A DNA stretch of 26,327 nucleotides from a virus, in IMG/VR virus record IMGVR_UViG_3300018421_000170, positions 1 through 26,327 of that record. The stretch is one strand, 5' to 3'. Below are positions 2,294 to 24,700 of this stretch, in pieces. Every line of letters begins with the position of its first letter. Position 1 is the stretch's first letter. Under the pieces are notes generated by a model. It was given only the letters and a program-made list of their open reading frames with translations, made no database searches and had not been told where the DNA came from. A program made the position numbers and the translations under genes.

Positions 2294-2455
2294 ATGACAG
2301 AGGTATATACGATTCTCCACAAGAACAAAGTTTTACATAAGAACTTGACGGAGACTGAGTATTTTGATATGATGGAGGACCTGTCGATAGAGTTTTATCA
2401 GACAGGTTTTCCAAGACCACAAGATCTTGAGACTAAAATTACTAAGAGGTATTGA
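2294..2455 (+). CDS. Small conserved cyanophage protein
   Basis: A 53-residue acidic protein beginning at ATG 2294, four bases after the glycosyltransferase stop. An earlier in-frame start at 2213 would overlap that gene by 77 bases with sequence that reads as a shadow, so the later start is chosen. Visible blocks are MTEVYTILHKNKVLHKNLTE, EYFDMMEDLSIEFYQTGFP and PQDL near the end. From memory, very similar short proteins with 'YTILHK' and 'DMMEDLSIEFYQTG..P.P' occur beside glycosyltransferase genes in other cyanomyoviruses. The function is unknown. The 2-bp gap to the next gene suggests co-translation. Confidence 0.7.
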   Translation: MTEVYTILHKNKVLHKNLTETEYFDMMEDLSIEFYQTGFPRPQDLETKITKRY

Positions 2456-2457
2456 TT

Positions 2458-2595
2458 ATGGCTATACGTAAGGGTGGCGGTTATGTGGAGGGTGCTCCGA
2501 AGAAAACTCGTCAAGGAGCAGGTATGAATACGAAGTACGCGGCGACTTCTCGCAATAAAGCGCGAAAGAAGTATCGCGGTCAAGGTAAAGGATGA
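2458..2595 (+). CDS. Tiny, strongly basic conserved cyanophage protein
   Basis: A 45-residue protein from ATG 2458 to TGA 2593-2595. It contains eight Lys and five Arg against one Glu, and many Gly (YVEGAPKKTRQG, TSRNKARKKYRGQGKG). From memory, short proteins with 'Y..GkP.KtkQG...tkYaaTSRN...KkYRGQGK' are shared by many T4-like cyanophages. The charge suggests nucleic-acid or other polyanion binding, which is inference only. It is the last gene before a strong intrinsic terminator, so it closes the operon that begins with the glycosyltransferase gene. Confidence 0.7.
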   Translation: MAIRKGGGYVEGAPKKTRQGAGMNTKYAATSRNKARKKYRGQGKG

Positions 2596-2600
2596 TAGTC

Positions 2601-2628
2601 AAGGAGGGGGGTATATGCCCCCTTTTTT
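2601..2628 (+). terminator. Rho-independent terminator
   Basis: AGGGGG (2605-2610) pairs with CCCCCT (2618-2623) around a 7-nt loop, and the run of six T (2623-2628) follows directly. It lies 5 bp after the stop of the 45-residue gene, the textbook position for ending the glycosyltransferase operon. Confidence 0.85.
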
Positions 2629-2634
2629 CATGAA

Positions 2635-2642
2635 AATAAATA
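2635..2642 (+). promoter_or_regulatory. T4-type late promoter (AATAAATA)
   Basis: AATAAATA matches the cyanophage late consensus NATAAATA. It follows the terminator directly and precedes the 2702 gene, with expected initiation near 2648 and a leader of about 54 nt. Confidence 0.6.
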
Positions 2643-2671
2643 ATGATAAGGGATAGCAACCCCTCTAAAAG

Positions 2672-2693
2672 TTCTGTTTTTTATAAAACAGGA
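2672..2693 (+). promoter_or_regulatory. Hairpin overlapping the ribosome-binding site of the 2702 gene
   Basis: CTGTTTT (2674-2680) pairs perfectly with AAAACAG (2685-2691) around the tetraloop TTAT, and T2673-G2692 and T2672-A2693 extend it. The 3' arm carries most of the AGGAG Shine-Dalgarno (2690-2694), which lies 7 nt before ATG 2702. Folding would hide the ribosome-binding site. No T-run follows, so a terminator is unlikely. Confidence 0.5.
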
Positions 2694-2701
2694 GCTAAAA
2701 A

Positions 2702-2962
2702 ATGGGTAATTCACCTGTAGATAGGGATGAGGACTATATGAAGGAGATGTGGGGCACGAATCGTCTCATCTCAGACTATGGTTCTATGCAAAAAATCAAC
2801 GTACATGAAGAGAAGAAGCAGTTTCTTCAAGAGATTATGGACTATGAGAAGACTCATGACTTGAAGAAGCAATCACAACTTCATGAGAAGATTAGAAATG
2901 ACGATGATTATGATGATTGGGAGTATGGTACAGAGCCAAATTACGGAAACCCTTGGAAGTAA
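2702..2962 (+). CDS. Small highly charged hypothetical protein upstream of gene 25
   Basis: An 86-residue protein with a strong Shine-Dalgarno (AGGAG, 7 nt spacing). The N-terminal part is acidic (DRDEDYMKEMWGTN). The middle (about 38-68) is a helix dense in Lys, Glu and Asp, with coiled-coil-like spacing (EEKKQFLQEIMDYEK, then DLKKQSQLHEKIRND). The end is acidic and aromatic (DDDYDDWEYGTE, then NYGNPWK). No known domain was recognised. It lies between two late promoters, so it is probably expressed late, possibly as a minor virion or assembly factor; this is inferred from position only. Confidence 0.65.
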   Translation: MGNSPVDRDEDYMKEMWGTNRLISDYGSMQKINVHEEKKQFLQEIMDYEKTHDLKKQSQLHEKIRNDDDYDDWEYGTEPNYGNPWK

Positions 2963-2963
2963 A

Positions 2964-2971
2964 TATAAATA
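2964..2971 (+). promoter_or_regulatory. T4-type late promoter (TATAAATA) of the baseplate operon
   Basis: An exact TATAAATA directly after the stop of the 2702 gene. The expected start, about six bases downstream near 2977, lies inside the left arm of the hairpin at 2973-2993, giving a leader of only about 18 nt to gene 25. Confidence 0.85.
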
Positions 2972-2972
2972 A

Positions 2973-2993
2973 TGTCAAGAAAACTTCTTGACA
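2973..2993 (+). promoter_or_regulatory. Perfect 9-bp inverted repeat directly before the gene 25 start
   Basis: TGTCAAGAA (2973-2981) is the reverse complement of TTCTTGACA (2985-2993), with loop AAC. One base separates it from ATG 2995. Only a transcript entering from upstream contains both whole arms; one initiated at the late promoter would lack about four bases of the left arm. The arrangement suggests a block on gene 25 translation in read-through mRNA that late initiation relieves. Confidence 0.55.
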
Positions 2994-2994
2994 C

Positions 2995-3396
2995 ATGGCA
3001 GTCACACGGATATCAAGAGCATTTAAGGACATTAGTTTGTCTTTTGATCCACATCCAGTGACGAAAGACCTGCCTGTACTGAAAAATGCGAATGCAATCA
3101 GTAGATCTGTACGTAATTTAGTAGAAACTATCCCAACTGAGCGTTATTTTAACTCTCTTTTGGGATCTGATGTACGTTCTAGTCTGTTTGATTTCGTTGA
3201 TTTTGGTACTGCAGCAGAAATTGAAGAGCAAATTACAACAACAGTAGAAAATTTTGAACCAAGAGTTGAAAATTTACAGGTAGAGGTCAATCCACAACCT
3301 GATAATAACACTTTTGAGGTCACAATTTACTTTGATATCATCGGTCAAGAGATTCCAACACAAGAATTTACATTTTTACTAGAGGCAACCAGATAA
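2995..3396 (+). CDS. 25: Baseplate wedge subunit gp25
   Basis: 133 residues, almost the same length as T4 gp25 (132). gp25 is a small wedge-core protein that binds the sheath-initiating surface next to gp6, gp7 and gp53, and is the relative of TssE in type VI secretion. Here the N-terminal half shows SLSFDPHPVTKDLPVLKNA, then AISRSVRNLVETIPTERYF, the family's 'v....ai..si.nll.T..geR' helix. The second half has a conserved ENFEPRV (about 86-92) matching the EPR motif of GPW/gp25 proteins, then strands ending in FTFLLEATR. It is the first gene of the baseplate block. It has no Shine-Dalgarno, and the initiation region lies against a hairpin. The next gene starts 3 bp after its stop. Confidence 0.93.
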   Translation: MAVTRISRAFKDISLSFDPHPVTKDLPVLKNANAISRSVRNLVETIPTERYFNSLLGSDVRSSLFDFVDFGTAAEIEEQITTTVENFEPRVENLQVEVNPQPDNNTFEVTIYFDIIGQEIPTQEFTFLLEATR

Positions 3397-5281: not shown

Positions 5282-8200
5282 ATGATAAAAACTGGATTTG
5301 AGACGAGGGTAAAAGTTCAGCAAGTTATTGAGAACCAATTACCAGAGTTTTTACGTTCTGAAAGTCCTAAAGCGGTAGATTTTCTCAAGCAATATTATAT
5401 TTCTCAGGAATATCAAGGTGGTCCTGTTGACATTGCAGAGAATCTGGACCAGTATTTAAGGTTAGATAATCTTTCGCCAGAAGTTATTTCTGGATCTACC
5501 ACATTGAGTGGTGATATTACAGATTCGTCCGATACCATTAGTGTCAATTCCACTAAGGGATTCCCAGCACAGTATGGTTTGTTCCAGGTTGATAATGAAA
5601 TTATCACCTACACTGGTATCACAACCAACTCATTCACTGGTTGTATCAGAGGTTTCAGTGGTATTACCACGTATCGCTCCGATTCAAATCCAGAAGAACT
5701 CGTCTTCTCCACATCCAGTAAAGTATCTCACACCTCTGGTTCCTCAGTCAAGAACCTGAGTGCAGAGTTCTTAAAGGAATTCTATAAGAAATTAAAGTAT
5801 ACATTTACTCCTGGTCTGGAGGATGTTGATTTTGTTTCTGATCTCGATGTCAGTAACTTCATCAAAGAAGCAAGAACTCTTTATCAGGCAAAGGGAACCA
5901 AGGAATCATTCAGAATTCTTTTTAATGTTCTCTATGGAGTAACCCCACAGGTTGTAGATCTTGAAGATTACCTTATAAAACCTTCAAGCGCACAGTTCTT
6001 AAGAAGAGAAATTGTTGTTGCTGAGAGAGTTTCTGGTGATCCAAACAAACTGATCGGTCAAACGATCAAAAAGTCAAGCGATACCACGACTCAGGGTTCT
6101 GTATCTGAAGTTGAGATCTTTACAAGAGCAGGCATATCCACATACTATAAGATTGGTCTGTTTGTTGGGTATGATGATAAGGACCTGATTGAGGGTACTT
6201 TCAACATTCAACCAAAGGCATATGCTGTCAATGCAGTTTCTGCAGGTTCTTCTGTAATTACTGTTGATTCTACTATTGGATTCCCTAGCAGTGGAACCAT
6301 TGTATCTGGAACCGACAGCATTACCTATGGTAGCAAGACCGTAAACCAGTTCTTAGATTGTAGTGGTATTGATAATGATATTGCTATCAAGGATGAAGTA
6401 AGAACTGATGAAGTCTTCTTTGGATATGAAGATGGAGATATAACCAAAAAAGTTGAGATTCGTGTCACTGGCGTCTTGTCTGAGTTTAGTCAGATTGGAG
6501 ACATCAAACTTTCAAGTGAAGGGCAGAAACTTTACGTCAAGAACGTTGGTGAAAAGATCTTAAATCCAGAGAGTAATAAGACAAGAAAGCAGATATTTGC
6601 AAACTCCTGGATCTATAATACAAGTTCCAGATTTGAAGTTGAGGATGTCAGTGGTTCTACTTTTGAACTCAAGGGTAATATTGACAGATCAACTCTGAAA
6701 GTAGGTGATACCGTTGATATTCTTGAAGGGTCTACAGAGACTGTAGCACACACTGGGGCAACTGTAGCAACTATTTCTGGTAGACAGATAACCCTAGACA
6801 ACTTAACAGGGTTTACTGAAAATACTTCGGTAAATTATACCATCAGAAGAACTTTAGAGACTGTAACAAGTTCTGGAACGCCCATCATTTACGGCAACAA
6901 TGTTCTAACATCTGATACTCAGAATGTTTACAGCAGTGGTGATGAGTATTTCTATGTTGCTTCAAACTCATTACCTTCTTACGACATAACAAAGAACGTT
7001 GTAAAAGCAACTCTTGCGTCTGCAACTGGAACTGCTCTGAAGGGATATGATATCAATACTGAGAAGTATTCTATTCTCTCATTCAGTTCAAGTGTTCCAT
7101 TCTTGACTGGCGATGAAGTTTATTACACTGCTTCTGATGACACCCTTATCGGTGTTCCTGAAGGTACATATTATGTAAAGGTTCTGTCCCCAGATAACCA
7201 AATAAAACTATATCTTTCAAGATCTCTGATCGTTACTGACAGTCCTGTTGAGTTTACTTCAGCATCTGCAGATGGTTCGCATACTTTCGTTCTGGCAACT
7301 CAGAAAGATGAGAAGATCAGACCACAGAAAGTACTGAAGAAGTTCCCAACAGAGAAGAATATTAAGACTGGTAATAATACTCCAACGATTCCAGGATCTA
7401 CTGGAATGCTTATCAATGGCGTAGAAGTAATAAATTACAAGTCTTTAGACAAAGTTTACTACGGTCCCGTCGATTACGTTACTCTTTATAATAAGGGTAA
7501 GGATTATGATGTTGTAAGTCCACCATCCGTAACCGTATCATCTCCAGGAACAGGAACAACTTCTTTGATTAGACCAGTTGTAACTGGTACTATTGAGGAC
7601 GTTATCGTTGATCCGCAAAATTTTGATATTAAGAGAGTTATTTCTGCAACAGTAACTGGTGGTAATGGTAGTGGAACTGTTCTGCAGCCAGTTGTAGAAG
7701 AAAGATTTAGAGAAGTTGAGTTTGATGCTCGTCTCACTGGTGATGGTGGTGGCATTGATATGGTGAATGAAACCATCACATTCTTAGAAGATCACAATCT
7801 CAGGGAAGGTGATGCTATTGTCTATAACAGAAATGGCAATAGTCCTGTTGGTGTTGGATCTTTTGGTGGCAACAATAACTACCTTGGCGATGATTTAAGC
7901 AGTGGTTCTGTTTATTACGCTGAGATTGTAAACACCTCTACAATTAAGTTATATCCAACAGAGGCTGATTACAATAGTGGTATCAATACTATTGGATTTA
8001 CTACATCAGTTACTCAAGGTATTCATAACTTTAGAACCTTTGAAGGTAAGAATACCCTCAGATCTATCAAGATCCTTGAGGCTGGTAGTGCTTATCAGAA
8101 CAGAAGACTTATTGTAGAACCAGAAAATATTTCATCGATTGACAATATTATCACTTTTGAGGACCATGGATTCAATGATGGAGATATTGTAACCTATTCT

Positions 8201-11200
8201 ACTGACGGAACTACGATTGGTGGTCTCTCTGCTTCCAACAGATACTACATTCTGAAGCAAGATGATGATAGATTCAAACTTGCCAATGCAGGTGTCGGTG
8301 GAACAATAACCACAAACTATGAAAGAAGGGAGTATGTAAACCTGACTTCCTCTGGTACTGGGTATCAGAATTTTGCATATCCCGATATTCAAATTAATTT
8401 GGATGTCGAATATGATGGAGTTACAGGAACTATAACAGCAACTCCTATTATCAGAGGAGAAATATCACATCTATATCTCTATGAGAAGGGAACTGGATAT
8501 GGTTCGGACGTTATCAACTTCCATAAGAGACCAAAAATTACCATTCAAAATGGTAAGGATGCTGAGATACAACCTATTGTATCTGGTGGGAAGATTGTTG
8601 CAGTACAAGTAACCAATGGTGGTAGTGAGTATACTTCAGCACCACTTCTGACTGTTAATGGTGTTGGTGTTGGTGCTAGACTGAGAGCAGTTGTAAATGC
8701 TGACGGAGAAATAACCAGCGTAGTCATTATCAATGCTGGTGTTGGATACGATTCCAATACTACTGTAACTGCTACTCCGAACGGCAGAAATGCTTTTGCT
8801 GAGGCATCTGTAAGACATCTGACACTTAATAACGTAGACAGATTTGACAATGAGATTCTGGTAGAGAATCCAGATAATTCTCAGGGTATTGAGTATGGTA
8901 TTGTTGGTTATTCTACTGATATTGGTTCAAACCTTCTCGACGATGGAACCGAACACTCACCAATTATTGGTTGGGCTTATGATGGAAATCCAATCTATGG
9001 ACCATATGCATACACTGATCCATATGATTCCGACTCAACAATTAAGACTCTTGATTCTGGATATACGCTTTCCACTTCGAATGTTGTTGATAGACCATCA
9101 GGATTTTCAAATGGATTCTTTGTCGAAGACTATACGTACGACAACTCTGGCGACTTAGACCAATATAACGGAAGATATGGCAAGACTCCAGACTTCCCTA
9201 ATGGCGTCTATGCATATTTTGCAACGTTAGACTCGTCATTGGACGCAGAGTTCCCATACTTTGTTGGAGATACCTACAGAAACATTCCACTGGTTCAAGA
9301 TGTAAATCAAGATTTTGATTTCAATAACTCTAATCTGACGAGAAACACACTTCCATACAATGTAGCAGAACCATTCTCTGACAACGATTTCATTTCCGAA
9401 CCCAATGAAATCCTTACTCAAACAGCAACTATTGAGTCAACCGCAAGAGGAAGAGTTACTCAACTGATTATCAATCAGGCAGGTTCTGGATATGCTGTTG
9501 GCGATGTAGTAAACTTTGATAATACTGGCACTGACGGTTGCTGTTTGAATGCTGATATTAAAACTGTTACAGGAAAAACCATCTCTGATGTAACATCTAC
9601 TACAGTTTCTTTCCCAGCAACCAAACTTATCTGGGAAGATGATAACAAACTGTCACTGCATGTAAGTCCCATCAACACCTTGGTTGATGGCGATAGCGTA
9701 TTCATTTCTGGTCTGACAACTGATATTCAGGGTATCAGTGGTCTCTCTAAGTCTCATAAGATTGGTATTAAGAGTGATACCACTTCTGTGATGAAGGAGA
9801 TTTCAACAAACGCAACTGCTGGAGTTGTAACTGATATCTATGTCTCCAGAATACCTTCTATTGTATCTGTAGGATCTTCAATAGGCATTGGAACAGAGAT
9901 ATTCTCCGTTCTTAATGTATTCCCCCAAAATAAAGTTCTAAGGGTCTCCAGAGGCGTTACAGGCACCGCTCACACGGTATCTACTGAAGCTTCAGTATTC
10001 GATGGAAAACTTACACTGAACTTCAGTACACAATACTTTAATTCCAAACTTGACGATAAAGTATACTTCAATCCAACACAATCTGTTGGTATTGGAACAA
10101 CGACTGGTATATCTGTATCCAAGAGTTACTCGATTGGCGATCTCACATCTACAATCTCCGTTCCAACTCAGAGCATTTATCTTCCAAATCATCCCTTCAA
10201 GACTTCACAAGAAGTTTCCTTTACAAGGGAGAGTGGTTCAAACACACTTTCAGTATCAGATACTGAAACGAGTTCGCCTTTCAACTTACATTCTGGTTCA
10301 GATACTCAAACTGTATATGTAATCAGTAAGTCTAAAGATTATATCGGTTTAGCAACTGAGGTTGGTCTCACTACAAGCACTGATGGATTGTACTTCAGAT
10401 CCTTCACCGCAAATGGAGATTCTGATGATTACAAATATGCATTTGAGTCAAACTTTACACAAGTTACTGGTGAAGTTAAGAAAGTAAGTACAACAGTTTC
10501 TGTTGGTTCTTCTCACTTAATGAATAATGGAGATTCTATCACTCTGACTGTAGAACCTAACCAATCAGTTGGTGTTGGAACTTCAACTGGAATTGTCGTT
10601 AAGTATAATTCCACATTCGAAAAACTGTTGGTAAATCCAGTCGGATTTAATTCAACTGGAGTAAGCACAACTGCAAATACGATTACTCTCACATCACATA
10701 ACTTTGAAACTGGCGATAAAGTATTCTACAATTCGACAGATACTCTTATCTCTGGTCTGACTACTGGAGCGTACTTTGTTTATAGAGTAGATAGTGACAA
10801 TATTAAACTGTCAAATACTAAGTTCTCTGCAGAAAGTCTTCCCCCAACTGTTGTAAGTTTTGCTTCAACTGGTGGCGCAAGTCAAGAGTTGTCTAAGATC
10901 AATCCAAAGATCGAAGTTATCAGAAATAATAACCTAGTATTTGACGTATCTGATACTTCACTTAATGGATTCAACTTCAAGATATTCAAGGACAAAGACT
11001 TCTACAACGAGTTGGTTTCTACTGGATCTACCACTACATTTAGTGTAACTGGGTTTGGTACAGTTGGTGTTACCACTAATGCTACAGTTACATTGGATTA
11101 TAGTGAAGGGTTGTCAACAAGACTTTATTATGCTTTAGAAAAGGGTGGATACATTAGCACGTCTGATACTGAAGTATCCAGTAATGCGGAGATTGCTTTT

Positions 11201-14200
11201 GTAGATAGTGCTTACAATGGTTCCTATAAAATCTCTGGCATAACTTCAAATACATTTAATATTTCACTTTCATCTATCCCAGAAGTATCAAATTATACTT
11301 CAAGCAATACCGAGACTCTGAAGTATTCATCTTCTTCTCCAACTGCTCGTGGTGGTGTAGATTCACTGAAAGTTATTTCTTCTGGTAATAACTACAAGAA
11401 ACTTCCAAAGTTTGTAAATATCACCTCTGCTGCAGGTGTAAATGCTGATATCATTCCACAATCTACAGAAATCGGTAGAATCAATGAAGTCACTATCATC
11501 GATCAAGGTTTTGATTTCTCTGCAGATAAGACTCTGAACCCAGAGGTTTATATCTCACCTATCGTCAATGTTATCAACAAGAATACTATTTCTGGTATCA
11601 GTATTGTATCTGGAGGTTCAAATTATACAACAGCACCAGATCTCGTTATCGTAAATCCAGATAATGGAACTGCTTACGATACTGGTTTCTTAGAGGCAGA
11701 ACTTCAAGGTTCATCTATTGCTAGTGTTTCAATCCAGGAAACTCCTAAGGGACTGTCGGAAACTGTCAACAAAGTATATGCTATCAACAACAGCAATGGT
11801 GTTGCAATAAGCACGATCAGATCGTCTTCTTCTGGAATTGTAACTTGTACTCTCGTAACACCTCTCACTGGGTTCAGCACGGATGTATTTAGTGTCGGTG
11901 AAGAAATCTTTGTTGAAGGAATTCAAAAGTACGGTACTGATGGCGAAGGATTCAACTCTGAAGACCATGAGTATAATTTCTTCACCGTAACTTCATATAC
12001 TAATACAAACCCTGCTATTGTAGCATTTGATATTTCAGACTTCACCTCAAATGCAGGTATTGCAGTAACGAATCAGAATTCTTTTGCTTCTATCATTAGC
12101 AAGTCGAACTATCCTGTATTTACAGTAACTCAGACAAAGAATAACTTTATTGTTGGCGAAACTTTATACACCAAGAATGGTTCCACTTATACTGAAAGAG
12201 ATTTGGTTATTACTGAAGATAGTGAAGACTTTATCAAGGTATATGGAACATACACACTTGAAGAAGGTGACGTTATCCTTGGAAAGGATTCTGGAACATT
12301 AGCAACCGTCAATACAACCACTGAAAATAGAGCTATATTCAGAGTAGACTATTCACTCAGAAAAGATATCGGATGGGCTGACGATGTTGGTAAACTCAAT
12401 GAAGATTATCAGGTAACTCCAGATAACGACTACTATCAGAATCTCTCTTACACAATCAAGAGTCCAATTGAGTGGGAAGATCTTGTAACGCCTGTTAATA
12501 GACTCCTCCACACATCCGGTCTCAAGAACTTTGCAGATACTGGTATAACCAGCACAGCAAGTGTATCTGGAGCATCTACTGCATCAACTACTCCTCAGTC
12601 TGCAAGTAGTTTGGCATTGCTTGATATTATTGAGAGTAAGAGAGTTGACACTATCAACAACTTTGATAGAGTCATTGATCTTGAAGTTGAGTCTAATAAG
12701 TCTAAGTTCCTCAAGTTTGAGAATATCAAACTTTCAGACTACATCAAATGCCTGACAAACAGAGTACTGGAAATAGACCAGATAAATGATGAGTTCCTCA
12801 GTGGAAGAAGTGGCAGTGATCTGTTTGTTGACGTTGACGAATACAATGTTGCTGACGGATATAGTCGTTTCTTGGTTCAGATTTCAAATCCAAGTTCAGA
12901 TGATCCAGATAGACAAACAATCGAACTTGTTACCTTACCTTCACCAGACGGAAATATTTTAACACTCGAAAAGGGCACTGTTGTCAGTGAAAATGAAGAT
13001 CTTGGAGAGATTCGTGGATTCATTGGTCCAGATGATGGTCTGAGTCTGAGATTCACTCCAACCGATAGTTTCGATTCTGATTACGATATTAAAGTAATCA
13101 AGAATAACTTCTCTTCAACCCTTGCTGGTGTTGGAACACAGTCTATCGGATTTATCAATCTCACTGGTTCAAACGTATCCGTATCTTCTGGAACTACAGA
13201 ATCTATTATTAGTGCAAATGTTTCTTCAACCGAAGCATTCTTTGCTAATGTAGAGGTTAGAAATACTGCAAACAATGAAAGAAATTATGTTGAAATTTAT
13301 GTAGATCATGATGGAACTGACACCTACATTTCGGAATATTTCTTCGATAATGCTGATACATATCAGACTTCTGGAAACTTTATCGGATCATTTGCTGCCA
13401 ATATTGATTCTGGCGTTCTTTCTATTGACTTCACTAACGACGAGTCTGATACTGTATTCATTCGCTCTAAGATCGTTGGCTTTGGAACCACTGCTTCGGG
13501 CATTGGAACTTACAGATTTGCAGCAACAGGTCAACCTGCAGATAGTGTAAGAAGTGCAAGAATTCAAAGTAACTTTGTAGTTGCTTCTGGAGTATCTACA
13601 GTATTCACAGTATCGTCTTCCGATGTTACTTCTATCAAGTCTATTGCAAAAGTAAGTTATGGAAGCACCAGTGCGCTGCACCAGATGCTGATAACTCACG
13701 ATGGAACAGATTCATATCTGGTCCAGTATCCATTCCTTGCTGTAGAAAATACAACAGGAATCGGAACATTTGGTTCTGTCCTTTCAGGTTCAAACTTAGA
13801 ACTTCAGTTCTTCCCTGAGTCTGGTATAACCGATGTTATTACAGTACAGACACAAAGTGAAATCATTCAAACTGAACTTGATTTTGTCAACACTCCTCTT
13901 GATCTGGTTTATGGACCTATGAGTGAGAGTGTTCTTATCTCTCAATATGATGCAATCAATGGAGATAGAATCAATAAGACTGCGTTTGATTTGGAATATT
14001 CAGGTACTCCAATCTTCCAGAAGACATTCAATCCATCAGATACTGATGTTCTTGAACTTGGAACTGGTACATTTACCATTGACGATCACTTCTTCAACAC
14101 TGGAGAGAAACTGTTCTATGCTTCAGGAACTTCATTTGAAGGTCAAACTTCAAGTGATATGCAGGATTCTGGTGGAACTGGTATCGGAACCACAGTCTTT

Positions 14201-17185
14201 GCTATCAGAGTCAATAACAATCAGTTCAGAATCGCATCAAGTCTTGCAAATGCAAATGCTGGAACTGCAATCACTTTCAGCTCTGCAGGAGATGGTAACG
14301 CACACACTCTTGAGATGGAGAAGAAGATGGAGAAATCCATTATCTCTATCGACGGTATCGTTCAATCTCCTATAACCTATACTTCAGTAGCATACACTCT
14401 GCAAAATAATATCAGTGGAAGTGTTTCTGCTGGTGCAACATTCTTTGCAATGACTGGCATTGCCACCATCTTCCCAGGAGATCTTCTCAGGATTGAAGAT
14501 GAATATCTTAAGGTTGAATCAGTTGGTCTTGGTACGACATCTGTTGGACCTATCACTGGAACTGGATCATTCAATGTCGTTAAGGCACAAAGAGGATTTG
14601 TTGGTTCATCCGCAACTTCTCACACAGATTCAACTGAAGCAAGAGTTTATATTGGATCTTTCAATATTGTTGGTTCTAAGATTCACTTTACCGAACCACC
14701 TACAGGAAGCGGATCATCCGAACCTGTAGATGCAGGAAACTTAGAGTTCCCAAGATCCACCTTTGGTGGTAGAGTCTATCTGAGACAGGATTATTCCACA
14801 AACCAAATATATGATAATATCTCCAGAGAATTTACTGGAATTGGTGCTACTTACACCTTGACTGTTGGTGGAGCAAATACAACTGGTATTGAAACTGGAA
14901 GTGGCGTCCTCTTCCTCAATAATATATTCCAGACTCCAACAACATCGAACAATAGTGGAAACAACTATAGTTTCTCTGAGAACTCTGGCATTTCTAGTGC
15001 AGTATTCACTGGTATAACTGACAATAGTGGAGACATTATTAATTCCGAATATGATGTAAATATCAATCAACTTCCAAGAGGTGGAGTTATTGTTTCTCTC
15101 GGATCAACACCTGGACTTGGTTATGCCCCTCTCGTAGGCGCATCAGTAACTGCAGTCGTCGGTGCTGGCGGTTCTATTGTTTCGGTTGGTCTCGGAACAA
15201 CAGATATTGTTGGATCTGGTTATAACGGAATCGTTTCTATCGGCATTTCGGTATTCGAAGAAAATCACGTTGGCGACGTTGCTTCTATTACAGCAACAGT
15301 TGGTGCTGGCGGAACATTATCCTTCTCTGTTGGTGCTGGTGGTACTGGATACAGCAATCCTGCAATTCTGGTATCTGAACCTTCTTATGAAAATCTTGAA
15401 GTTGTTGGTGTATCCAGACTTGGAATTGGAGCAACAACAGATACTGGAACTGGTCTCTTATTGTCGGTTGAAGTTGGAGAAACTTCTACTACAGGTATTG
15501 GATCTACCTTATTTGAAGTTAAGACGTTCAACATAACCAGACCTGGATATGGATTTAAAGTTGGTGATGTATTCACTCCAGTTGGTTTGGTTACAGACAG
15601 AAATCTGTCTGGAGTAACTACACAATTCGAACTTACGGTTCTTGATACCTTTACTGATGGATTCTCTGCTTGGCAGTTTGGTGAACTTGATTATATTGAT
15701 TCTATTGCAACCTTACAAGACGGAACTAGACAGAGATTCCCACTTTATTACAATAATCAACTATTGAGTTTTGAAATTGATGAAGATGATGCAGATTCAG
15801 CACAGATTGACCTCAATGCAGTATTGCTGATATTCGTCAACGGTGTTATCCAGAAACCTGGTGAAGCATATACATTTGAAGGTGGTACTTCATTCAGATT
15901 CACTGAACCACCAAGACCAGAAGATAATGTTAGCGTCTTCTTCTACAGAGGTACAAGAGGAACTGATAGTTTAACTCAAGATATAACTGAGACTGTTAAA
16001 GTTGGTGATACTCTCACGGTTCGCAAGAATCCTGCAAATGAGGATACTGTCGGACAAGATCCAAGAGTCGTACATAAAATTTCAGAATCAGATAGAGTAG
16101 AAACTAACATTTATACTGGTCTTGGTATTGATGAAGATAACTATAAACCAGTTGATTGGACTAAGCAAAAGTCTGATTTGATTATCAATAATGAAGTTAT
16201 CTCCAAGGCAAGAGATTCTATCGAAGCACAAGTTTATCCAACTTCTAAGATTATTGGCGATTTCTCAACTACAGACACTCAACTCTTTGTCGATAACGCA
16301 CAGTTCTTCAACTATGAAGAGAATGAAAGTTCTATTGTAATCGCTGATGTAGATGGAATTATCGTTCAGGGTACAGATCCAGTAGCAGCAGCAATAACTG
16401 CAGTTGTTTCTGCTGCAGGAACTATCAGTAGTTTGACTATTAATGATGGTGGTTCTGGATACACTGGTTCTTCCGTTAGCGTCTCTATTGCTGCACCAAA
16501 AGCAATTGGGGTTGGAGTTGGAACAACTGCTACTGCAACGGTATCGGTTACCAACGGTGCTCTCGATACTGCAACGATAACTAATCCTGGATTTGGATAT
16601 ACCCAAACAAATCCACCTCAAGTTCTTGCACCAACAACCAATACATCATACGAAAACATTACTGGAATTGATGATGTTGAAGGATTCTCTGGTATTATCA
16701 CAGGAATTACAACCACAACGGGTACAGGCGGTCATCCACTTGCACTTCAGTTCTTCCTCCATTCACCAGACTTCAATGCCGACTTACTGGAAGGTTATCC
16801 AATCTTAATTAAGAATACTTCTATTGGTTCTGGCGTGACTTCCGTTGATAGTGGTAACTCTGCAGTTGTTGGAATTGGTACAACATTCCTCGATAACGTC
16901 TATATCATTCACACTCTCAACCACCCAGGTGCTGCAAATGCAGACATAATCGTCAACATTGATTCTGGCACCGATACAACTGGATTATCAACGGTTGGTG
17001 TTGGTACAACAAATCCAGTTGGAAGATTCTCCTGGGGTAGATTGTCAGGATTTACTAGAGATGATTCACCAATTTCTATTGGTGTCACTGGATTGACTGT
17101 CAATCTGGGTCTGACGACGTTCCCTTCAATTCAAAGAAGAGGATATGGTTTGAGAGATTCTGGAAGTCTCAGGAAGAAATTCTGA
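5282..17185 (+). CDS. Giant baseplate protein at the gp7 position, with gp7-like core and beta-module array
   Basis: 3,967 residues, nearly four times T4 gp7 (1,032). The N-terminal ~330 residues resemble the C-terminal wedge-core part of gp7: a mostly helical section, then YQAKGTKESFRILFNVLYG (about 201-219) and LIGQTIKK (257-264), matching as I recall 'YsTKGieaSYkFLFkVLY' and 'LVGQTIY' of T4. The rest is a chain of beta modules: about seven 'H..f..Gd.V.Y' units (near 605, 837, 960, 1636, 1744, 1805, 2934), GxGY units (near 738, 1113, 3720), a degenerate YHYH-like domain (about 1200-1345), a helical island (about 2383-2517), a tandem duplication (about 2627-2873) and three NG..Q.P units (near 3025, 3209, 3516). 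The C-terminus has FSWGRLSGFTRDDSP and RRGYGLRDSG blocks common in cyanophage giants. An AGAGG lies upstream of the ATG. Wedge role probable; outer role inferred. Confidence 0.85.
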   Translation: MIKTGFETRVKVQQVIENQLPEFLRSESPKAVDFLKQYYISQEYQGGPVDIAENLDQYLRLDNLSPEVISGSTTLSGDITDSSDTISVNSTKGFPAQYGLFQVDNEIITYTGITTNSFTGCIRGFSGITTYRSDSNPEELVFSTSSKVSHTSGSSVKNLSAEFLKEFYKKLKYTFTPGLEDVDFVSDLDVSNFIKEARTLYQAKGTKESFRILFNVLYGVTPQVVDLEDYLIKPSSAQFLRREIVVAERVSGDPNKLIGQTIKKSSDTTTQGSVSEVEIFTRAGISTYYKIGLFVGYDDKDLIEGTFNIQPKAYAVNAVSAGSSVITVDSTIGFPSSGTIVSGTDSITYGSKTVNQFLDCSGIDNDIAIKDEVRTDEVFFGYEDGDITKKVEIRVTGVLSEFSQIGDIKLSSEGQKLYVKNVGEKILNPESNKTRKQIFANSWIYNTSSRFEVEDVSGSTFELKGNIDRSTLKVGDTVDILEGSTETVAHTGATVATISGRQITLDNLTGFTENTSVNYTIRRTLETVTSSGTPIIYGNNVLTSDTQNVYSSGDEYFYVASNSLPSYDITKNVVKATLASATGTALKGYDINTEKYSILSFSSSVPFLTGDEVYYTASDDTLIGVPEGTYYVKVLSPDNQIKLYLSRSLIVTDSPVEFTSASADGSHTFVLATQKDEKIRPQKVLKKFPTEKNIKTGNNTPTIPGSTGMLINGVEVINYKSLDKVYYGPVDYVTLYNKGKDYDVVSPPSVTVSSPGTGTTSLIRPVVTGTIEDVIVDPQNFDIKRVISATVTGGNGSGTVLQPVVEERFREVEFDARLTGDGGGIDMVNETITFLEDHNLREGDAIVYNRNGNSPVGVGSFGGNNNYLGDDLSSGSVYYAEIVNTSTIKLYPTEADYNSGINTIGFTTSVTQGIHNFRTFEGKNTLRSIKILEAGSAYQNRRLIVEPENISSIDNIITFEDHGFNDGDIVTYSTDGTTIGGLSASNRYYILKQDDDRFKLANAGVGGTITTNYERREYVNLTSSGTGYQNFAYPDIQINLDVEYDGVTGTITATPIIRGEISHLYLYEKGTGYGSDVINFHKRPKITIQNGKDAEIQPIVSGGKIVAVQVTNGGSEYTSAPLLTVNGVGVGARLRAVVNADGEITSVVIINAGVGYDSNTTVTATPNGRNAFAEASVRHLTLNNVDRFDNEILVENPDNSQGIEYGIVGYSTDIGSNLLDDGTEHSPIIGWAYDGNPIYGPYAYTDPYDSDSTIKTLDSGYTLSTSNVVDRPSGFSNGFFVEDYTYDNSGDLDQYNGRYGKTPDFPNGVYAYFATLDSSLDAEFPYFVGDTYRNIPLVQDVNQDFDFNNSNLTRNTLPYNVAEPFSDNDFISEPNEILTQTATIESTARGRVTQLIINQAGSGYAVGDVVNFDNTGTDGCCLNADIKTVTGKTISDVTSTTVSFPATKLIWEDDNKLSLHVSPINTLVDGDSVFISGLTTDIQGISGLSKSHKIGIKSDTTSVMKEISTNATAGVVTDIYVSRIPSIVSVGSSIGIGTEIFSVLNVFPQNKVLRVSRGVTGTAHTVSTEASVFDGKLTLNFSTQYFNSKLDDKVYFNPTQSVGIGTTTGISVSKSYSIGDLTSTISVPTQSIYLPNHPFKTSQEVSFTRESGSNTLSVSDTETSSPFNLHSGSDTQTVYVISKSKDYIGLATEVGLTTSTDGLYFRSFTANGDSDDYKYAFESNFTQVTGEVKKVSTTVSVGSSHLMNNGDSITLTVEPNQSVGVGTSTGIVVKYNSTFEKLLVNPVGFNSTGVSTTANTITLTSHNFETGDKVFYNSTDTLISGLTTGAYFVYRVDSDNIKLSNTKFSAESLPPTVVSFASTGGASQELSKINPKIEVIRNNNLVFDVSDTSLNGFNFKIFKDKDFYNELVSTGSTTTFSVTGFGTVGVTTNATVTLDYSEGLSTRLYYALEKGGYISTSDTEVSSNAEIAFVDSAYNGSYKISGITSNTFNISLSSIPEVSNYTSSNTETLKYSSSSPTARGGVDSLKVISSGNNYKKLPKFVNITSAAGVNADIIPQSTEIGRINEVTIIDQGFDFSADKTLNPEVYISPIVNVINKNTISGISIVSGGSNYTTAPDLVIVNPDNGTAYDTGFLEAELQGSSIASVSIQETPKGLSETVNKVYAINNSNGVAISTIRSSSSGIVTCTLVTPLTGFSTDVFSVGEEIFVEGIQKYGTDGEGFNSEDHEYNFFTVTSYTNTNPAIVAFDISDFTSNAGIAVTNQNSFASIISKSNYPVFTVTQTKNNFIVGETLYTKNGSTYTERDLVITEDSEDFIKVYGTYTLEEGDVILGKDSGTLATVNTTTENRAIFRVDYSLRKDIGWADDVGKLNEDYQVTPDNDYYQNLSYTIKSPIEWEDLVTPVNRLLHTSGLKNFADTGITSTASVSGASTASTTPQSASSLALLDIIESKRVDTINNFDRVIDLEVESNKSKFLKFENIKLSDYIKCLTNRVLEIDQINDEFLSGRSGSDLFVDVDEYNVADGYSRFLVQISNPSSDDPDRQTIELVTLPSPDGNILTLEKGTVVSENEDLGEIRGFIGPDDGLSLRFTPTDSFDSDYDIKVIKNNFSSTLAGVGTQSIGFINLTGSNVSVSSGTTESIISANVSSTEAFFANVEVRNTANNERNYVEIYVDHDGTDTYISEYFFDNADTYQTSGNFIGSFAANIDSGVLSIDFTNDESDTVFIRSKIVGFGTTASGIGTYRFAATGQPADSVRSARIQSNFVVASGVSTVFTVSSSDVTSIKSIAKVSYGSTSALHQMLITHDGTDSYLVQYPFLAVENTTGIGTFGSVLSGSNLELQFFPESGITDVITVQTQSEIIQTELDFVNTPLDLVYGPMSESVLISQYDAINGDRINKTAFDLEYSGTPIFQKTFNPSDTDVLELGTGTFTIDDHFFNTGEKLFYASGTSFEGQTSSDMQDSGGTGIGTTVFAIRVNNNQFRIASSLANANAGTAITFSSAGDGNAHTLEMEKKMEKSIISIDGIVQSPITYTSVAYTLQNNISGSVSAGATFFAMTGIATIFPGDLLRIEDEYLKVESVGLGTTSVGPITGTGSFNVVKAQRGFVGSSATSHTDSTEARVYIGSFNIVGSKIHFTEPPTGSGSSEPVDAGNLEFPRSTFGGRVYLRQDYSTNQIYDNISREFTGIGATYTLTVGGANTTGIETGSGVLFLNNIFQTPTTSNNSGNNYSFSENSGISSAVFTGITDNSGDIINSEYDVNINQLPRGGVIVSLGSTPGLGYAPLVGASVTAVVGAGGSIVSVGLGTTDIVGSGYNGIVSIGISVFEENHVGDVASITATVGAGGTLSFSVGAGGTGYSNPAILVSEPSYENLEVVGVSRLGIGATTDTGTGLLLSVEVGETSTTGIGSTLFEVKTFNITRPGYGFKVGDVFTPVGLVTDRNLSGVTTQFELTVLDTFTDGFSAWQFGELDYIDSIATLQDGTRQRFPLYYNNQLLSFEIDEDDADSAQIDLNAVLLIFVNGVIQKPGEAYTFEGGTSFRFTEPPRPEDNVSVFFYRGTRGTDSLTQDITETVKVGDTLTVRKNPANEDTVGQDPRVVHKISESDRVETNIYTGLGIDEDNYKPVDWTKQKSDLIINNEVISKARDSIEAQVYPTSKIIGDFSTTDTQLFVDNAQFFNYEENESSIVIADVDGIIVQGTDPVAAAITAVVSAAGTISSLTINDGGSGYTGSSVSVSIAAPKAIGVGVGTTATATVSVTNGALDTATITNPGFGYTQTNPPQVLAPTTNTSYENITGIDDVEGFSGIITGITTTTGTGGHPLALQFFLHSPDFNADLLEGYPILIKNTSIGSGVTSVDSGNSAVVGIGTTFLDNVYIIHTLNHPGAANADIIVNIDSGTDTTGLSTVGVGTTNPVGRFSWGRLSGFTRDDSPISIGVTGLTVNLGLTTFPSIQRRGYGLRDSGSLRKKF
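13159..13900 (+). repeat. Protein-level tandem duplication inside the giant baseplate gene
   Basis: Two consecutive units of about 131 residues. Each has a strand-rich start, a core with an aspartate-rich turn (VDHDGTDTYISEYFF at about 13300, ITHDGTDSYLVQYPF at about 13692) and a similar tail (GSFAANIDSGVLSIDF; GSVLSGSNLELQFFPE). The key turns lie 393 bp apart. Nucleotide identity is much lower than the protein pattern, so the duplication is old. Confidence 0.65.
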
Positions 17186-18779: not shown

Positions 18780-21700
18780 ATGCCACAAAAAACGAATCTC
18801 AATATAAGTCCCTATTATGACGATTTTGATAAGGACAATAATTTTTATAGGGTCTTATTCAAACCAGGATACCCAGTTCAAGCCAGAGAACTGACAACTT
18901 TACAATCGATTCTTCAAAACCAAGTAGAATCGTTTGGAAGTCACGTTTTCAAAGAGGGATCGATGGTTATCCCCGGGAACGTAAATTATGATCCAGAATA
19001 TTACTCAGTAAGGTTGAGTGAGGATCATCTTGGTATTGATATTTCAGTTTATGCTAGCAACTTAGTTGGTAAGAGAGTTAGAGGTCAAACCTCTGGAGTT
19101 GTAGCAGTAGTTGATAAGTATTCTAATGTTTCTGAGGTTGATGGGATTACTGATCCCACAATCTTTGTTAAGTATCTGAACTCTGGAACAAGCACCACTG
19201 CAGAATACTTTGATGATGGCGAAGTTCTTATTACAGAAGAAAGTTTTACTTACGGAAATACCACAATCAACGCTGGTGATACCGTAGCAAATCTTGTAGG
19301 TACTAACTCTTGTGCTAGAGGAACTGCAGTTTCTATTGGTGCTGGAGTTTACTTTATCAGAGGCACTTTTGTAGACGTTGCTGAAGATAAGTTAGTATTA
19401 GACCCATACTCTGCAAGTCCATCTTACAGAGTAGGTTTGACTATTCTTGAAGAAACTATTTCTGCTAAGGATGATTCTTCACTCTACGATAACGCAAAGG
19501 GATATTCCAACTATTCTGCACCTGGTGCAGATAGACTTAAGATTACTACAGTCTTATCTAAGAAGTTTTTAACTGATTTCAGTGATAAAACATTTGTAGA
19601 ATTAATTAAGATTGACAATGGAGAAATCAAGAAACTCCAAAACAAGAGTGAATATAGTATTATTAGAGACTATTTCGCACAAAGAACTTATGAAGAGTCT
19701 GGCGATTATAGTGTAGGCAGATTTGATGTTGAAGTAAAAGAATCACTCAACAATGGTCTGTCGAACGAGGGTGTATTTACATCTTCACAAAAGACTGACG
19801 AAGGAAATACTCCTTCAGAAGACTTGGCATCTATCAAAATTTCTCCAGGCAAAGCATATGTCAGAGGATATGATATTGATGCAACAGGAACGACTATCCT
19901 TGATGTAGAAAAACCAAGAGATAAGAACACTGTCTCACAATCATTAGTTCCATTTGAATTTGGAACACTCTTAAGGGTAAATAACGTCGAAGGAACTCCA
20001 ATTCTTGGGGTCAATAATAACTCCAACACAGTAAAACTCCATAGCGAGAGAGTTAGTTCTAGAGCTGCTGGTAACGGTCATCTAATTGGTGAAGCAAGAA
20101 TATATTCATTCAGCTTGACAGATGCATCATATACGGATGCAACAACAGACTGGGATCTGTATTTGTTTGACGTTCAAACTTATACAGAAGTAACTACAAA
20201 TGGAGGATTGAGTTCAGCACAGTGTCCCGCATCTTCATTCGTTCGTGGCGTAAGTAGCGGTGCTTCTGGTTATGTTGTAACTGCTCCAGGTGGATCATCA
20301 GTTCTCACACTGGATCAAACATCTGGAACATTCATTGCTGGAGAGCAACTTCTAATCAACGAGACTACTGAAGTTTCAAGATCGGTTGTATCTGTACGCA
20401 CATTCGGTATTAAGGATGTAAAATCTGTATATCAAAATAGTGATAACGGAACTGACTACCAGCACGACTTTACTGGTGATACCGTCCTTCAGAGATCACT
20501 TCCAAAGAACTTCAGCATTTCAGATAGAATTAGAATCACTTCTGGGGGTAACGTAACTTCTCCAGGCAAATCATTTAGTGGTATTAAGACTGATACCATT
20601 ATTAGATATCAGATTGCTGGTTTATCAACAGAAACTTATAATAGAGTTTCTGCAGTTGCTGCCGATGGGTCTTCAATGACCGTTTCTGCAATTACTCATG
20701 TCGATGGTGTTAACAGCGGTAATCTGCCTGGTGCAGATGTAGAAGTTCCATTTACAATCGGTTCACCATTAGCAAGAGACAATGGTGGATTATATGCAAA
20801 GATTGATAATAGCAACATTGCATCTGTAGATCTTGCAGATTCTACTCTGCTTGTCAAGAAAGATATTCTCTTAGAATCGACAGATGCATCTGGTAATTTA
20901 ACTATTCCTATTTCTTCGGTTGGAATCAGTAGCGCACTGTTTGAATCCTTTGATTCTGAGAGATATGGAATCTTCTATAGTGATGGTTCTATTGAGGATC
21001 TTACTTCAGATCAGTTTAGTTTAAGTGGTGGCGGATCTAGCGTTACATTCACAGGTTTGACTGCAAGCCAAACAAACAATGTTACCGTTACCGTAACTGT
21101 CAAGAAAAATAATATCAAGAACAAAAAGAAAGAGTATACTAGAAGTGAAAAGGTAGAAGTCACTAGAACGGTATCTGGTGTTTCTACTAGTACGACTGGT
21201 CTGACTGAAAGTAAGTTCTATGGAACTAGAGTTGAAGATAGAGAAATCTCTCTCAATCATCCAGACGTAGTAGAAGTCATTGCAGTTTATGAGTCATATA
21301 ACTCAAGTGCTCCTACTTTAGATTCTCTTGAATTCCCATCTGGTCTTGGTTTAGATACGAATTCAATTCTTGGTGAGAGAATTGTTGGTGCAACCTCAGG
21401 TGCTATCGCTCAGTTAGTAACCAGATCTTCAGCAACAAAGGTTGAAATTGTATATCTCAACTCCAATAAGTTTGTTGTTGGTGAAAGTGTAACTTTTGAG
21501 GAATCAAATATCACTTCACTGTCTACCGCAGTCAATGAAGGTAACTATCAAGATATTACAAATAAATTCTCTCTTGATAAGGGACATAGAGAGCAGTATT
21601 GCGATTATTCAAAACTCGTAAGAAAGAGTGATGGATATGTCCCAACTAATAAGATTACTGCAATCTTTAATCGCTACACTATTCCAACAAACGACACTGG

Positions 21701-24700
21701 TGACGTATACACTGTAAACTCTTACGATCAGGAGAGATACGGTAAAGATATTCCAATCCTTGCTGATGGTATTAGAGCATCAGACACACTTGACTTTAGA
21801 CCAAGAGTCGCTCCATTCACTTCAACAACTTCATCACCATTTGCATTCTCAAGCAGAACCTTTGGTGCTTCAACCAACCCAGCGTTGGTTCTTGCTCCTT
21901 CAGAAAGTTCATTGATAGGTTATGATTATTACTTACCTAGAATTGATAAGGTTGTATTAGATAAACTTGGTAAGTTCTCCGTTATCAAAGGCGTATCTGC
22001 ACTTAATCCAAAGGTTCCTACCAATGTTGAGGAAGCAATGGATATTGCAACTATTGAATATCCAGCATATCTTTATGATACTAGCGACGTAGTTATCAAA
22101 CTCGTCGATAACAGAAGATATACGATGAGGGATATTGGTAAGATTGATGATAGGGTTTCTACTCTTGAAGAGTTGACCTCTCTCAGTCTTCTTGAACTTG
22201 ACACAAAATCTCTACAAGTTAGAGATGTTGATGGTCTTGATAGATTCAAGTCTGGTTTCTTTGTTGACGACTACAAGGACGTAGCAAGACTTGATGGAAG
22301 ACTTTCTACCGTAAACGTAGATACTGAGAAGAAGGAATTACTCTCTCCTATCGATTTCTATTCTATCAAACCAGAAATCGCACTCAAGACTACAATTGAT
22401 GCAACAACTGCAGACTTCTCAGCAAATCTTGACCTCTTAGATTCTAACGTACAGAAGACTGGAGATCTGATTACACTGAAGTACGATCAGAAAGGATGGA
22501 TCGAACAACCTCTCGCTTCTAGAGTTGAGAACGTCAATCCATTTAACATGATTGAGTTCAATGGTACAATTCAACTGACACCAGCATCTGATAACTGGGT
22601 TAGAAACATTTATGTCAATGGTGGCGAAAGATCTATCACTGGCGATTTTGACGGTTCATTTGTTGAAACTGTCAGAATCTCTAGCGTACCTGACAGACAC
22701 ATCAGATCCAGAAACGTAACGTTTGCTGCTTCAGGTCTCAAGCCACTCACAAGATACTATCCATTCTTCGATGGTACAAGTGGAATTGATATTATTCCAA
22801 AACTGATTCAAATTTCAATGACCTCTGGCACATTTAGTGTTGGAGAGACCGTACAAGGATTTATTGGTAGCACAAGACTCTTTAGTGGAAGAGTTGTTAG
22901 ACCAAATCATAAGTCTGGTCCATTCGATGATCCAGAAACCACAATTTCACTGAATCCATATAATAAGGCAGTAACCTTATCATCTTCATACTCAGCATCA
23001 TCTACTGTACTGAATATTGATATTGAATCCCTCTCTGATGAAGTTGTTGGTAGATTCAACGGATACTTGACCGTTGGCATGGTTCTTCTCGGTCAGACCA
23101 GTGGAGCACAAGCATCGGTTTCTGAAATTAAACTGGTAACAGATACTTTTGGTGATCTTCTTGGATCATTCTTCTTCAGAAATCCACTTGCTACACCACT
23201 GCCTCCTCTAAGATTCACTACAGGGTCTAAGACATTCAAGTTGACTTCTAGTTCAACAAATGCTGAACCACTGCCAGGAAGTCTCCTGATTAGTAGTGGT
23301 GAAACAACCTATAGTACCAGCGGTAGAGTTGATACTTACAGACAGACACGAGTTATTGTAAGAAGACCACCCCCACCACCACCGCCAGCACCCCCAGCTA
23401 GACCTGCTAGAAGGGATCCTCTCGCTCAGTCATTTACTGTCGATGAAACTGGCGCATTCCTTACTTCCTTAGATCTTTTCTTTGGAAACAAAGATGAAAA
23501 TGAAAAGGTAACAGTTGAGATTAGAACTGTTGAGTTGGGTACACCAACAAATCAGGTTGTAGCAGACTATGCTCGCGTAACATTAGAACCTTCACAAGTC
23601 AATACTTCAACTGATGGTTCTGTTGCTACTAGAGTTACATTCCCATCTCCAGTATATCTGCAACCAGATACTGAGTATGCAGTTGTAATCCTCTCACCAT
23701 ATTCCGATAATTATGAGACTTGGATTGCTAGAATGGGTGAGAAGACCGTTAACACATCAACTCTCCCAGATGCAGAAAGCGTTATTGTAACCAAGCAATA
23801 CGTTGGTGGAAGTCTCTTCAAGTCTCAAAACGGGACTATTTGGACTGCAAACCAGTTTGAAGATCTCAAGTTCAAACTTTATAAGGCAGAGTTTGCAACG
23901 ACTTCTGGAACCGCATACTTCTATAACCCAACTCTTGGTGTTGATGAGGCATCTTCAGATCTTCCAGAGAATCCTATCAGAACACTTCCAAGAAAGTTGA
24001 GAGTTGGTATTACTACCACAACTGCTCTGAACTCTGAACTGGTTGTTGGTAGAAAGGTCAGTGATACAACTACTGCAGGTGGACCACACGGTTACATCGA
24101 ACAGGTTGGTGGAAGAATAGGTAACCTGGTTAATTCACTGGTCGGTGCAGGTTACAGTGACGGAACCTTCAGTTCTGTACCTTTCTACTCCATCACTGGT
24201 TCTGGAACTGGTGCTGTTGGTGTTGTCACATTCAGTGGCGGTGCTCTCACAGGAAATCCTCACATTACAACTTTTGGTAATGGATATGTAGTTGGCGATG
24301 TTCTTGGTATTACCACAAGTAACGTTGTCAAGGGATCTGGAGCACAAATCTCAGTTAACTTACTGAATGGATTTGATACTCTGTATCTGACTAACGTTCA
24401 GGGTGAAGAACTCACTGCAAATCAGGATCTGGTCGTTTATGATGGATCGACTGCAGTTTCTTATGCCAATACTGATATCCTTTCTTCAGCGACAGTAAGT
24501 GATCTTTACGATGGTAGAGTTATTGAGGTTACTCAATTCAACCATGGTATGCACGCAGACAATAATGTCTTGACGCTTGCTAACATTGAACCAAATACAA
24601 TTCCAACAACACTTGATGCTGCTCTTAGTATCAATGATACTACAATTTCTGTTGCAAATACATCAATCTTTGCAACCTTCGAAGGTATCTCAACTTCAAC

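Follow-up and report, generated by a model that had tools for sequence, protein, structure and literature searches.

Does the hairpin that abuts the start codon of gene 25 in a T4-like cyanophage guard the translation of that gene, as a leader hairpin does at gene e of T4? In T4, the late RNA of gene e (lysozyme) lacks the 5' strand of a start-codon hairpin whose helix is reported to sequester the Shine-Dalgarno sequence and/or the AUG (PMC3014915); soc, 49 and I-TevI belong to the same kind. The DNA analysed here, called the window throughout, is a 26,327-base IMG/VR record, which its gp25 relatives place among the T4-like cyanophages. The open reading frame at ATG 2995 (2995-3396, plus strand) had been taken in the preliminary description for gene 25, at the start of the baseplate genes. 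Profile matches agree, with a hit to phrog_261, the baseplate wedge subunit (E 8.8e-54), a gp6-like gene next and more baseplate genes downstream of gp25. The baseplate region includes one ORF of 3967 codons (5282-17185). Elsewhere in the window, an ORF of 2356 codons lies at 18780-25850, and the 75-aa protein encoded at 1230-1457 resembles the antitoxin MazE at a level below the Pfam threshold (E 0.00032; 21 bits, the cut-off being 24.7).

Upstream of gene 25, an exact late-type promoter box, TATAAATA, stands at 2964-2971 on the plus strand, one base before the hairpin, just as had been described. The hairpin itself (2973-2993, plus strand) has the arms TGTCAAGAA (2973-2981) and TTCTTGACA (2985-2993) around the loop AAC, and is followed by C at 2994 and the ATG at 2995. 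Direct reading of the letters confirmed that it is a perfect 9-bp inverted repeat ending one base before the start codon, and a repeat search returned arms that are 100% complementary. Two perfect stems of at least 9 bp with a loop of 3-8 occur in the window as a whole; shuffling it 30 times gave 1.2 on average, and the presence of one at some place in the window is therefore unremarkable. Within the gene 25 leader, 7 of 20,000 shuffles of 2972-2994 with the box held fixed yielded such a stem. The piece 2960-3010 folds at -9.3 kcal/mol, the shuffled mean being -3.86 and none of 200 shuffles as low; for the longer piece 2950-3040 the total energy is ordinary (47 of 200 shuffles as low), and the 9-bp stem is part of the predicted fold. 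When RNA is folded from 2973, the minimum-energy fold pairs differently and the 9-bp stem is found in the centroid only.

The published late motif of S-PM2, NATAAATA, has since been reported in all of the cyanophage genomes that the work cited there examined (PMC2984593). In the window the word TATAAATA is not enriched (2 found, 1.12 expected); both copies directly precede a gene. Among gene 25 leaders, a late-type box lies no more than 60 nt from the start in 267 of 273, as NATAAATA in 230 and as N[CG]TAAATA, accepted only where NATAAATA was missing, in 37. The box is absent from the other six leaders, five of them Syn9-type plus L284, and these were excluded from the leader set, for which L078 and L100 gave no start codon; one phage may count twice among these loci (S-PM2, for example, is both L091 and L173). 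AGAAAAC was tried as a general late-leader motif and rejected: S-SKS1 has a single NATAAATA-N2-8-AGAAAAC, at gene 25, S-PM2 likewise has one but at another place, and three other genomes have none. T4 late boxes are numbered from -13, about one helical turn upstream of the start (PMC2988020, available text). If the box-to-start spacing is the same here, +1 is predicted at 2977 on the plus strand. A late start near 2977 that cuts four bases from the left arm had been proposed, and on T4 spacing the predicted start does fall inside that arm, which upholds the proposal as far as the letters of the DNA can carry it.

The energetics of the start region were computed as an opening cost, the energy needed to open -14 to +15 around the start codon. 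For gene 25 this cost is 11.4-12.2 kcal/mol over four read-through lengths. From a late start it is 6.8 kcal/mol at 2977 or 2979 and 7.3 at 2975, and with a start at 2973 it is 11.1, so that a start at or before 2973 abolishes the effect. The claim that read-through RNA folds the full stem beside the start codon agrees with the predicted costs, about 11.4 kcal/mol against 6.8 for late RNA. T4 gene e, computed likewise as a positive control, goes from 17.3 to 6.4 or 2.6 kcal/mol from its two late boxes. In these models the relief at gene 25 is of the same sign as at gene e and half the size or less, about 4.6-5.4 kcal/mol against 10.9-14.7. As at gene e, the late box TATAAATA of the window is set so that a late RNA would lack the 5' strand of the hairpin. 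Unlike gene e, the window's gene 25 has no Shine-Dalgarno sequence, and its stem ends one base before the AUG. As to sequestering of the start site in the long RNA, the predicted opening cost is about 5 kcal/mol higher there, but the AUG lies beyond the stem and the search for a Shine-Dalgarno sequence gave none.

Compensatory change in the arms had been set as a check on the hairpin, and here the result was largely unfavorable. Among 26 distinct leaders of the clade, five of the nine pairs are broken, mostly without compensation, at frequencies that range from 11 of 25 sequences to 12 of 14. As the arms change mostly without compensation in the clade alignment, we rejected the idea that a hairpin is conserved at gene 25 by compensating changes. 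The perfect 9-bp stem is found in 2 of the 79 relatives listed, both of them contigs whose gp25 is identical to that of the window, and an 8-bp stem in 3 of the 79, so the structure is not kept in close relatives. Gene e-type leaders, in contrast, are predicted in close relatives of T4 in the available text of PMC3014915. The clade for the stem tests was picked by an AGAAAAC-type pattern and comprises 29 of the 39 distinct leaders at 74% or higher gp25 identity; invariance of the AGAAAA-type motif among the 29 is no evidence, since the motif was required by selection. In alignment A2 (26 distinct leaders, with the window in place of L001, and L042, L044 and L045 omitted as their register differs), 63.1% of cells pair in the window's stem against 59.1% in column shuffles (0 of 500 as high) and at most 45.8% in slid controls, both sides are changed in 7 cells against 3.3 in shuffles (7 of 500 as high), and among the 29 distinct leaders native arms average -2.77 kcal/mol against -2.16 for swapped arms (an average so low came up in 37 of 5000 swaps), all three kinds of control leaving the relatedness of the leaders in. 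TGAC is retained in most of the clade and its partner letters drift; the outer left arm varies freely (GTC, CTC, GGC, CCC, GCT). At least six pairs form downstream of the box in 13 of the 29 distinct leaders, often through a shifted or bulged stem, and 9 of the 29 fold there at -3.5 kcal/mol or lower. The alignments thus suggest that the gene 25 stem is under weak constraint at best.

Gene 25 leaders were also compared with those of other late genes. Fold p values of 0.05 or less against shuffles were obtained for 9 of 44 gene 25 leader clusters (2.2 expected), each cluster being tested through one representative and the window's own leader not being used, and for 18 of 161 other late-box leaders from five genomes. 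A p of 0.056 was obtained for the representative of the 46-locus cluster to which the window's leader type probably belongs. Median predicted relief was 2.61 kcal/mol for 121 gene 25 leaders and 1.45 for 158 other late leaders, exceeding 3 kcal/mol in 50 and 42 of these, respectively, and 5 kcal/mol in 25 and 27; the control leaders were chosen by our own rule (ATG, at least 80 codons) rather than by annotation, and some gene 25 leaders are among them. Folding predictions indicate that hairpins between late box and start codon are recurrent in cyanophages of this kind. They are modestly more frequent at gene 25, although for strong hairpins the difference is not clear. The gene 25 leaders of S-SKS1 and S-SRM01 show weak folding or none. 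Three individual leaders may be recorded here. In S-SRM01 (L336:2214-2247), a 10-bp hairpin precedes a 193-codon ORF with the same geometry of box, hairpin and ATG. At L044:2475-2503 the late box itself pairs with a stretch ending in the start codon, in a predicted 12-bp stem of -8.2 kcal/mol; this stem takes in the late box, so it would be formable only by read-through RNA. In the gene 25 leader at L171:1031-1070, a Shine-Dalgarno-like word, AGGAG, is masked by pairing with CTCCT immediately ahead of the ATG (p 0.10 for the fold).

What RNA would read through into gene 25? A terminator-like hairpin with a T run lies 5' of the small gene that precedes gene 25 (2601-2628, plus strand; fold -16.5 kcal/mol). 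The terminator scan did not list it, and by a simple rule a hairpin of its type occurs in 12 of 31 distinct relatives. Next comes a late-type box, AATAAATA, at 2635-2642 on the plus strand, with a predicted +1 at 2648; relatives have boxes at a like distance. A sigma-70 scan found no sigma-70-like site between the 2601-2642 region and 2964. Given the terminator-like hairpin and late-type box upstream and no sigma-70 site between, the RNA that reaches gene 25 is most likely itself late, starting at the 2635 box, rather than early. The hairpin and box of 2601-2642 may keep transcripts that start further upstream out of the small gene and gene 25. The preliminary description had the hairpin guarding against premature translation of early read-through RNA; with these elements ahead of the upstream gene, early read-through is not evident at the window's gene 25, which is a further difference from T4 gene e. 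A block on premature synthesis is thereby weakened, and an effect on gp25 dosage is still possible.

Of the gene e-type plan as a whole, then, the anatomy and the predicted energetics stand, whereas conservation is weak, gene 25 is not clearly special among late genes and early read-through is doubtful. Tentatively, we would read the hairpin as a lineage-specific, weak-to-moderate start-site guard acting like the T4 gene e leader. RNA reading through from the small gene, which the sequence makes possible, would carry both arms, fold the 9-bp stem before the AUG and presumably be initiated poorly. Late RNA from the box at 2964-2971 would begin near 2977, without the outer four bases of the left arm; such RNA loses the stem on folding, and would be translated from an 18-nt leader without a Shine-Dalgarno sequence. 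The main effect would be on the dose of gp25 per transcript and not the prevention of early synthesis, because the incoming RNA is likelier to come from the late-type box at 2635 than to be early. If the guard is true, the gene e trick would be in use at a different gene, in a cyanophage lineage and at a gene that has no Shine-Dalgarno sequence. About as likely is an accidental match of the two leader halves, and we hold this reading just as tentatively. Here selection would act to maintain the late box together with a short leader rich in A, which has AAGAAAAC from about +1 and TGACCA-ATG after it, and in a few genomes the two halves would be complementary by chance, leaving the stem incidental. 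The retention of TGAC in most of the clade beside a free outer left arm fits such an accident, as do the weak conservation of pairs, the share of AGAAAA-type leaders among those with gp25 at least 74% identical (29 of 39 distinct leaders) and the similar frequency of strong reliefs at other late genes. It sits less easily with the rarity of a 9-bp stem under shuffling (7 of 20,000), with swapped arms that pair less well than native ones, and with the six or more pairs retained in 13 of 29 distinct leaders.

It is very unlikely that the hairpin is a translation enhancer that brings a distant Shine-Dalgarno sequence near the AUG, as a split ribosome-binding site. There is no match of four or more bases to the Shine-Dalgarno word AAGGAGGT, which was used for matching, in 2941-2994, and a T4-type split site at the window's gene 25 was rejected because the upstream Shine-Dalgarno sequence is missing. 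The idea has its appeal in that T4 gene 25 has a hairpin of its own that enhances translation (PMC3014915, available text), and the window's hairpin lies 5' of the homologous gene in a similar position. T4 gene 25, however, has an upstream Shine-Dalgarno sequence and no NATAAATA within 200 nt upstream, whereas the window's gene 25 has a late box and no Shine-Dalgarno sequence, and the same available text says that distant T4-related phages are without the split arrangement. A layout resembling the T4 split site was seen in P-SSM2-type gene 25 leaders (L084:1446-1503, L093; a 17-locus cluster), where GGGAG or GAGAG is followed by a CTAAAT/ATTTAG hairpin abutting the ATG; its fold is no better than shuffles (p 0.36). 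Equally improbable is a 3'-end or termination element, either a stem lying 3' of the small gene with a stabilising effect or a terminator that acts on antisense RNA. The stem does start 10 bases past the stop codon of the small gene, and the scan lists a terminator-like site on the minus strand at 2994-2972, but the tail on that strand, instead of a plain T run, consists of the complement of the late box, which is AT-rich, and the plus strand has no T run after the stem. The hairpin therefore lacks the pattern of an intrinsic terminator, a G+C-rich stem and then a T run on the coding strand.

A better lead, with a stronger signal than the gene 25 hairpin, lies upstream. The small gene (2702-2962, plus strand) encodes an 86-aa protein that matches phrog_1414, a family with no function assigned, and has no Pfam match. 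We put at roughly three in four the probability that it is the leader of this gene (2648-2701), an undescribed cis-regulatory RNA of T4-like cyanophages, and not the gene 25 hairpin, that acts as the regulator where the baseplate operon begins. The modelled parts of this RNA are a compensating stem, P1, with a AUAGNAAC loop, a linker, a AAAAGUUCU box and a second stem that would hide the Shine-Dalgarno sequence of the small gene. The window reads AAGGGATAGCAACCCCTCTAAAAGTTCTG at 2648-2676. On its plus strand, P1 (AGGG/CCCT) with its AUAGCAAC loop occupies 2649-2664, the AAAAGUUCU box, invariant in alignment A1, 2667-2675, and the predicted hairpin P2, holding the Shine-Dalgarno sequence AGGAG (2690-2694) and showing a compensating fourth pair, 2670-2696. 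Model R1, whose alignment includes the window, matches it at 2648-2677 with 52.1 bits.

A pattern scan together with the gp25 loci gave at least 259 places, which include some records more than once, and at least 182 distinct copies. Copies needed at least three Watson-Crick pairs beside the loop, for which L460 was dropped, and the first three P1 pairs are paired by selection. Within that limit, the second P1 pair is G-C in 122 and A-U in 60 of the 182 distinct copies among the matches listed. The fourth pair, which was unselected, is A-U in 79, G-C in 50, C-G in 48, U-A in 1 and unpaired in 4, again among the matches listed. In 53 distinct cores, P1 has 50 cells in which both sides are changed, where shuffles give 21.4 and none of 500 comes as high. 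Its covariation score is 0.447 against at most 0.269 for slid controls; the fifth pair is poorly kept, being unpaired in 21 of the 53. Alignment A1 takes one locus per distinct core and includes the window; of the 53 cores it omits one, the GTDB core L462. The P1 loop is AUAGNAAC in 180 of the 182 distinct copies among the matches listed, the search expression having required loop parts and a AAAGTTCT box, so that the invariance of both is partly by construction.

A second stem follows the box in 181 of the 182 distinct copies among the matches listed, by our own classification, class 'B' of which includes a few probable chance stems (CTGGAAA, ATTTTT). Among these matches the Shine-Dalgarno sequence is at the 3' foot of the stem in 129 and mostly in its loop in 36; 13 stems pair back to the linker or the P1 strand, and 3 have other layouts. 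The fourth pair of the commonest layout (137 leaders among the matches listed) is split evenly between A-U and U-A, with 66 each, the remaining 5 being unpaired. Predicted pairing of the Shine-Dalgarno sequence exceeds 0.5 in 171 of the 177 elements that have one, five being without, among the matches listed. Two partners are conceivable for the GUU of the box: the AAC of the loop, giving a pseudoknot, and, in leaders of the commonest type, the strand of the Shine-Dalgarno sequence, an alternative that would make the element a switch; both the GUU and the AAC letters were required in the searches, so their pairing could not vary among the copies collected.

The context of the element is narrow. 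Among the matches listed, 180 of 182 elements are followed by a small-family ORF, the other two contigs ending within 160 bases, and gp25 is next in all 177 loci that could be judged, three contigs ending too soon, at a median of 34 nt past the stop of the small ORF; many of these loci were fetched for holding gp25, while for L340-L459 the RNA pattern was the sole criterion. By model R1, S-SKS1, Syn9 and S-SRM01 have one copy each (all but the last 842 bases of S-SRM01 searched). The model finds none in P-SSM2 or S-PM2, where the best chance scores are 17 bits or less, and none in 60 gp25 loci picked because the pattern was not seen there, some of which have short flanks. In genome_contigs the pattern matches three contigs of metagenome-derived genomes, two of which model R1 confirms. 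A 60-base query matches 145 records of the phage collection, of which 114 are Synechococcus phages, the limit having been set loosely enough to let in chance matches; no RNA feature is annotated under the match among the 60 of 145 matches listed.

Rfam at the gathering threshold gave no match for the leader RNA in seven sources, and on window 2400-3100, with E up to 10, the 11 matches were all below threshold. Two cyanophage studies that searched Rfam name other RNAs in their available text (PMC9964418, PMC10665884), and no description of this leader RNA was found in the accessible text of the open-licence literature. The cyanophage cis-regulatory RNAs glnA, manA, wcaG and PhotoRC-II are, in the available accounts, structured leaders in T4-like cyanophages, a class that would take in the 2648-2701 element. 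Unlike them, the element has no Rfam match at threshold, and the copies found precede one gene family.

What might the leader RNA do? Because the copies collected always stand before the same gene, and the Shine-Dalgarno sequence is predicted to be hidden in most, its role would be translational control of the small gene. Control by the gene's own product is the simplest reading of the narrow context. With a median net charge of -6 in 142 distinct sequences, however, the small protein is acidic, which does not speak for direct RNA binding. A metabolite switch is possible, although metabolite-switch RNAs often serve several genes. Among the matches listed, a late-like box is present at 112 of 181 leader RNA loci (NATAAATA at 55, NBTAAATA at 57) and absent at 69; it lies mostly 5-8 nt before P1, which would place the 5' end of a late transcript at the element or slightly ahead of it.

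In sum, many cyanophages carry a structured leader RNA at the head of the baseplate operon, unmarked in the annotated records listed. This RNA offers a handle on the translational control of a widespread small gene next to the baseplate genes, and with the cultured isolates Syn9, S-SKS1 and S-SRM01 among its carriers, both the leader RNA and the gene 25 guard are directly testable.
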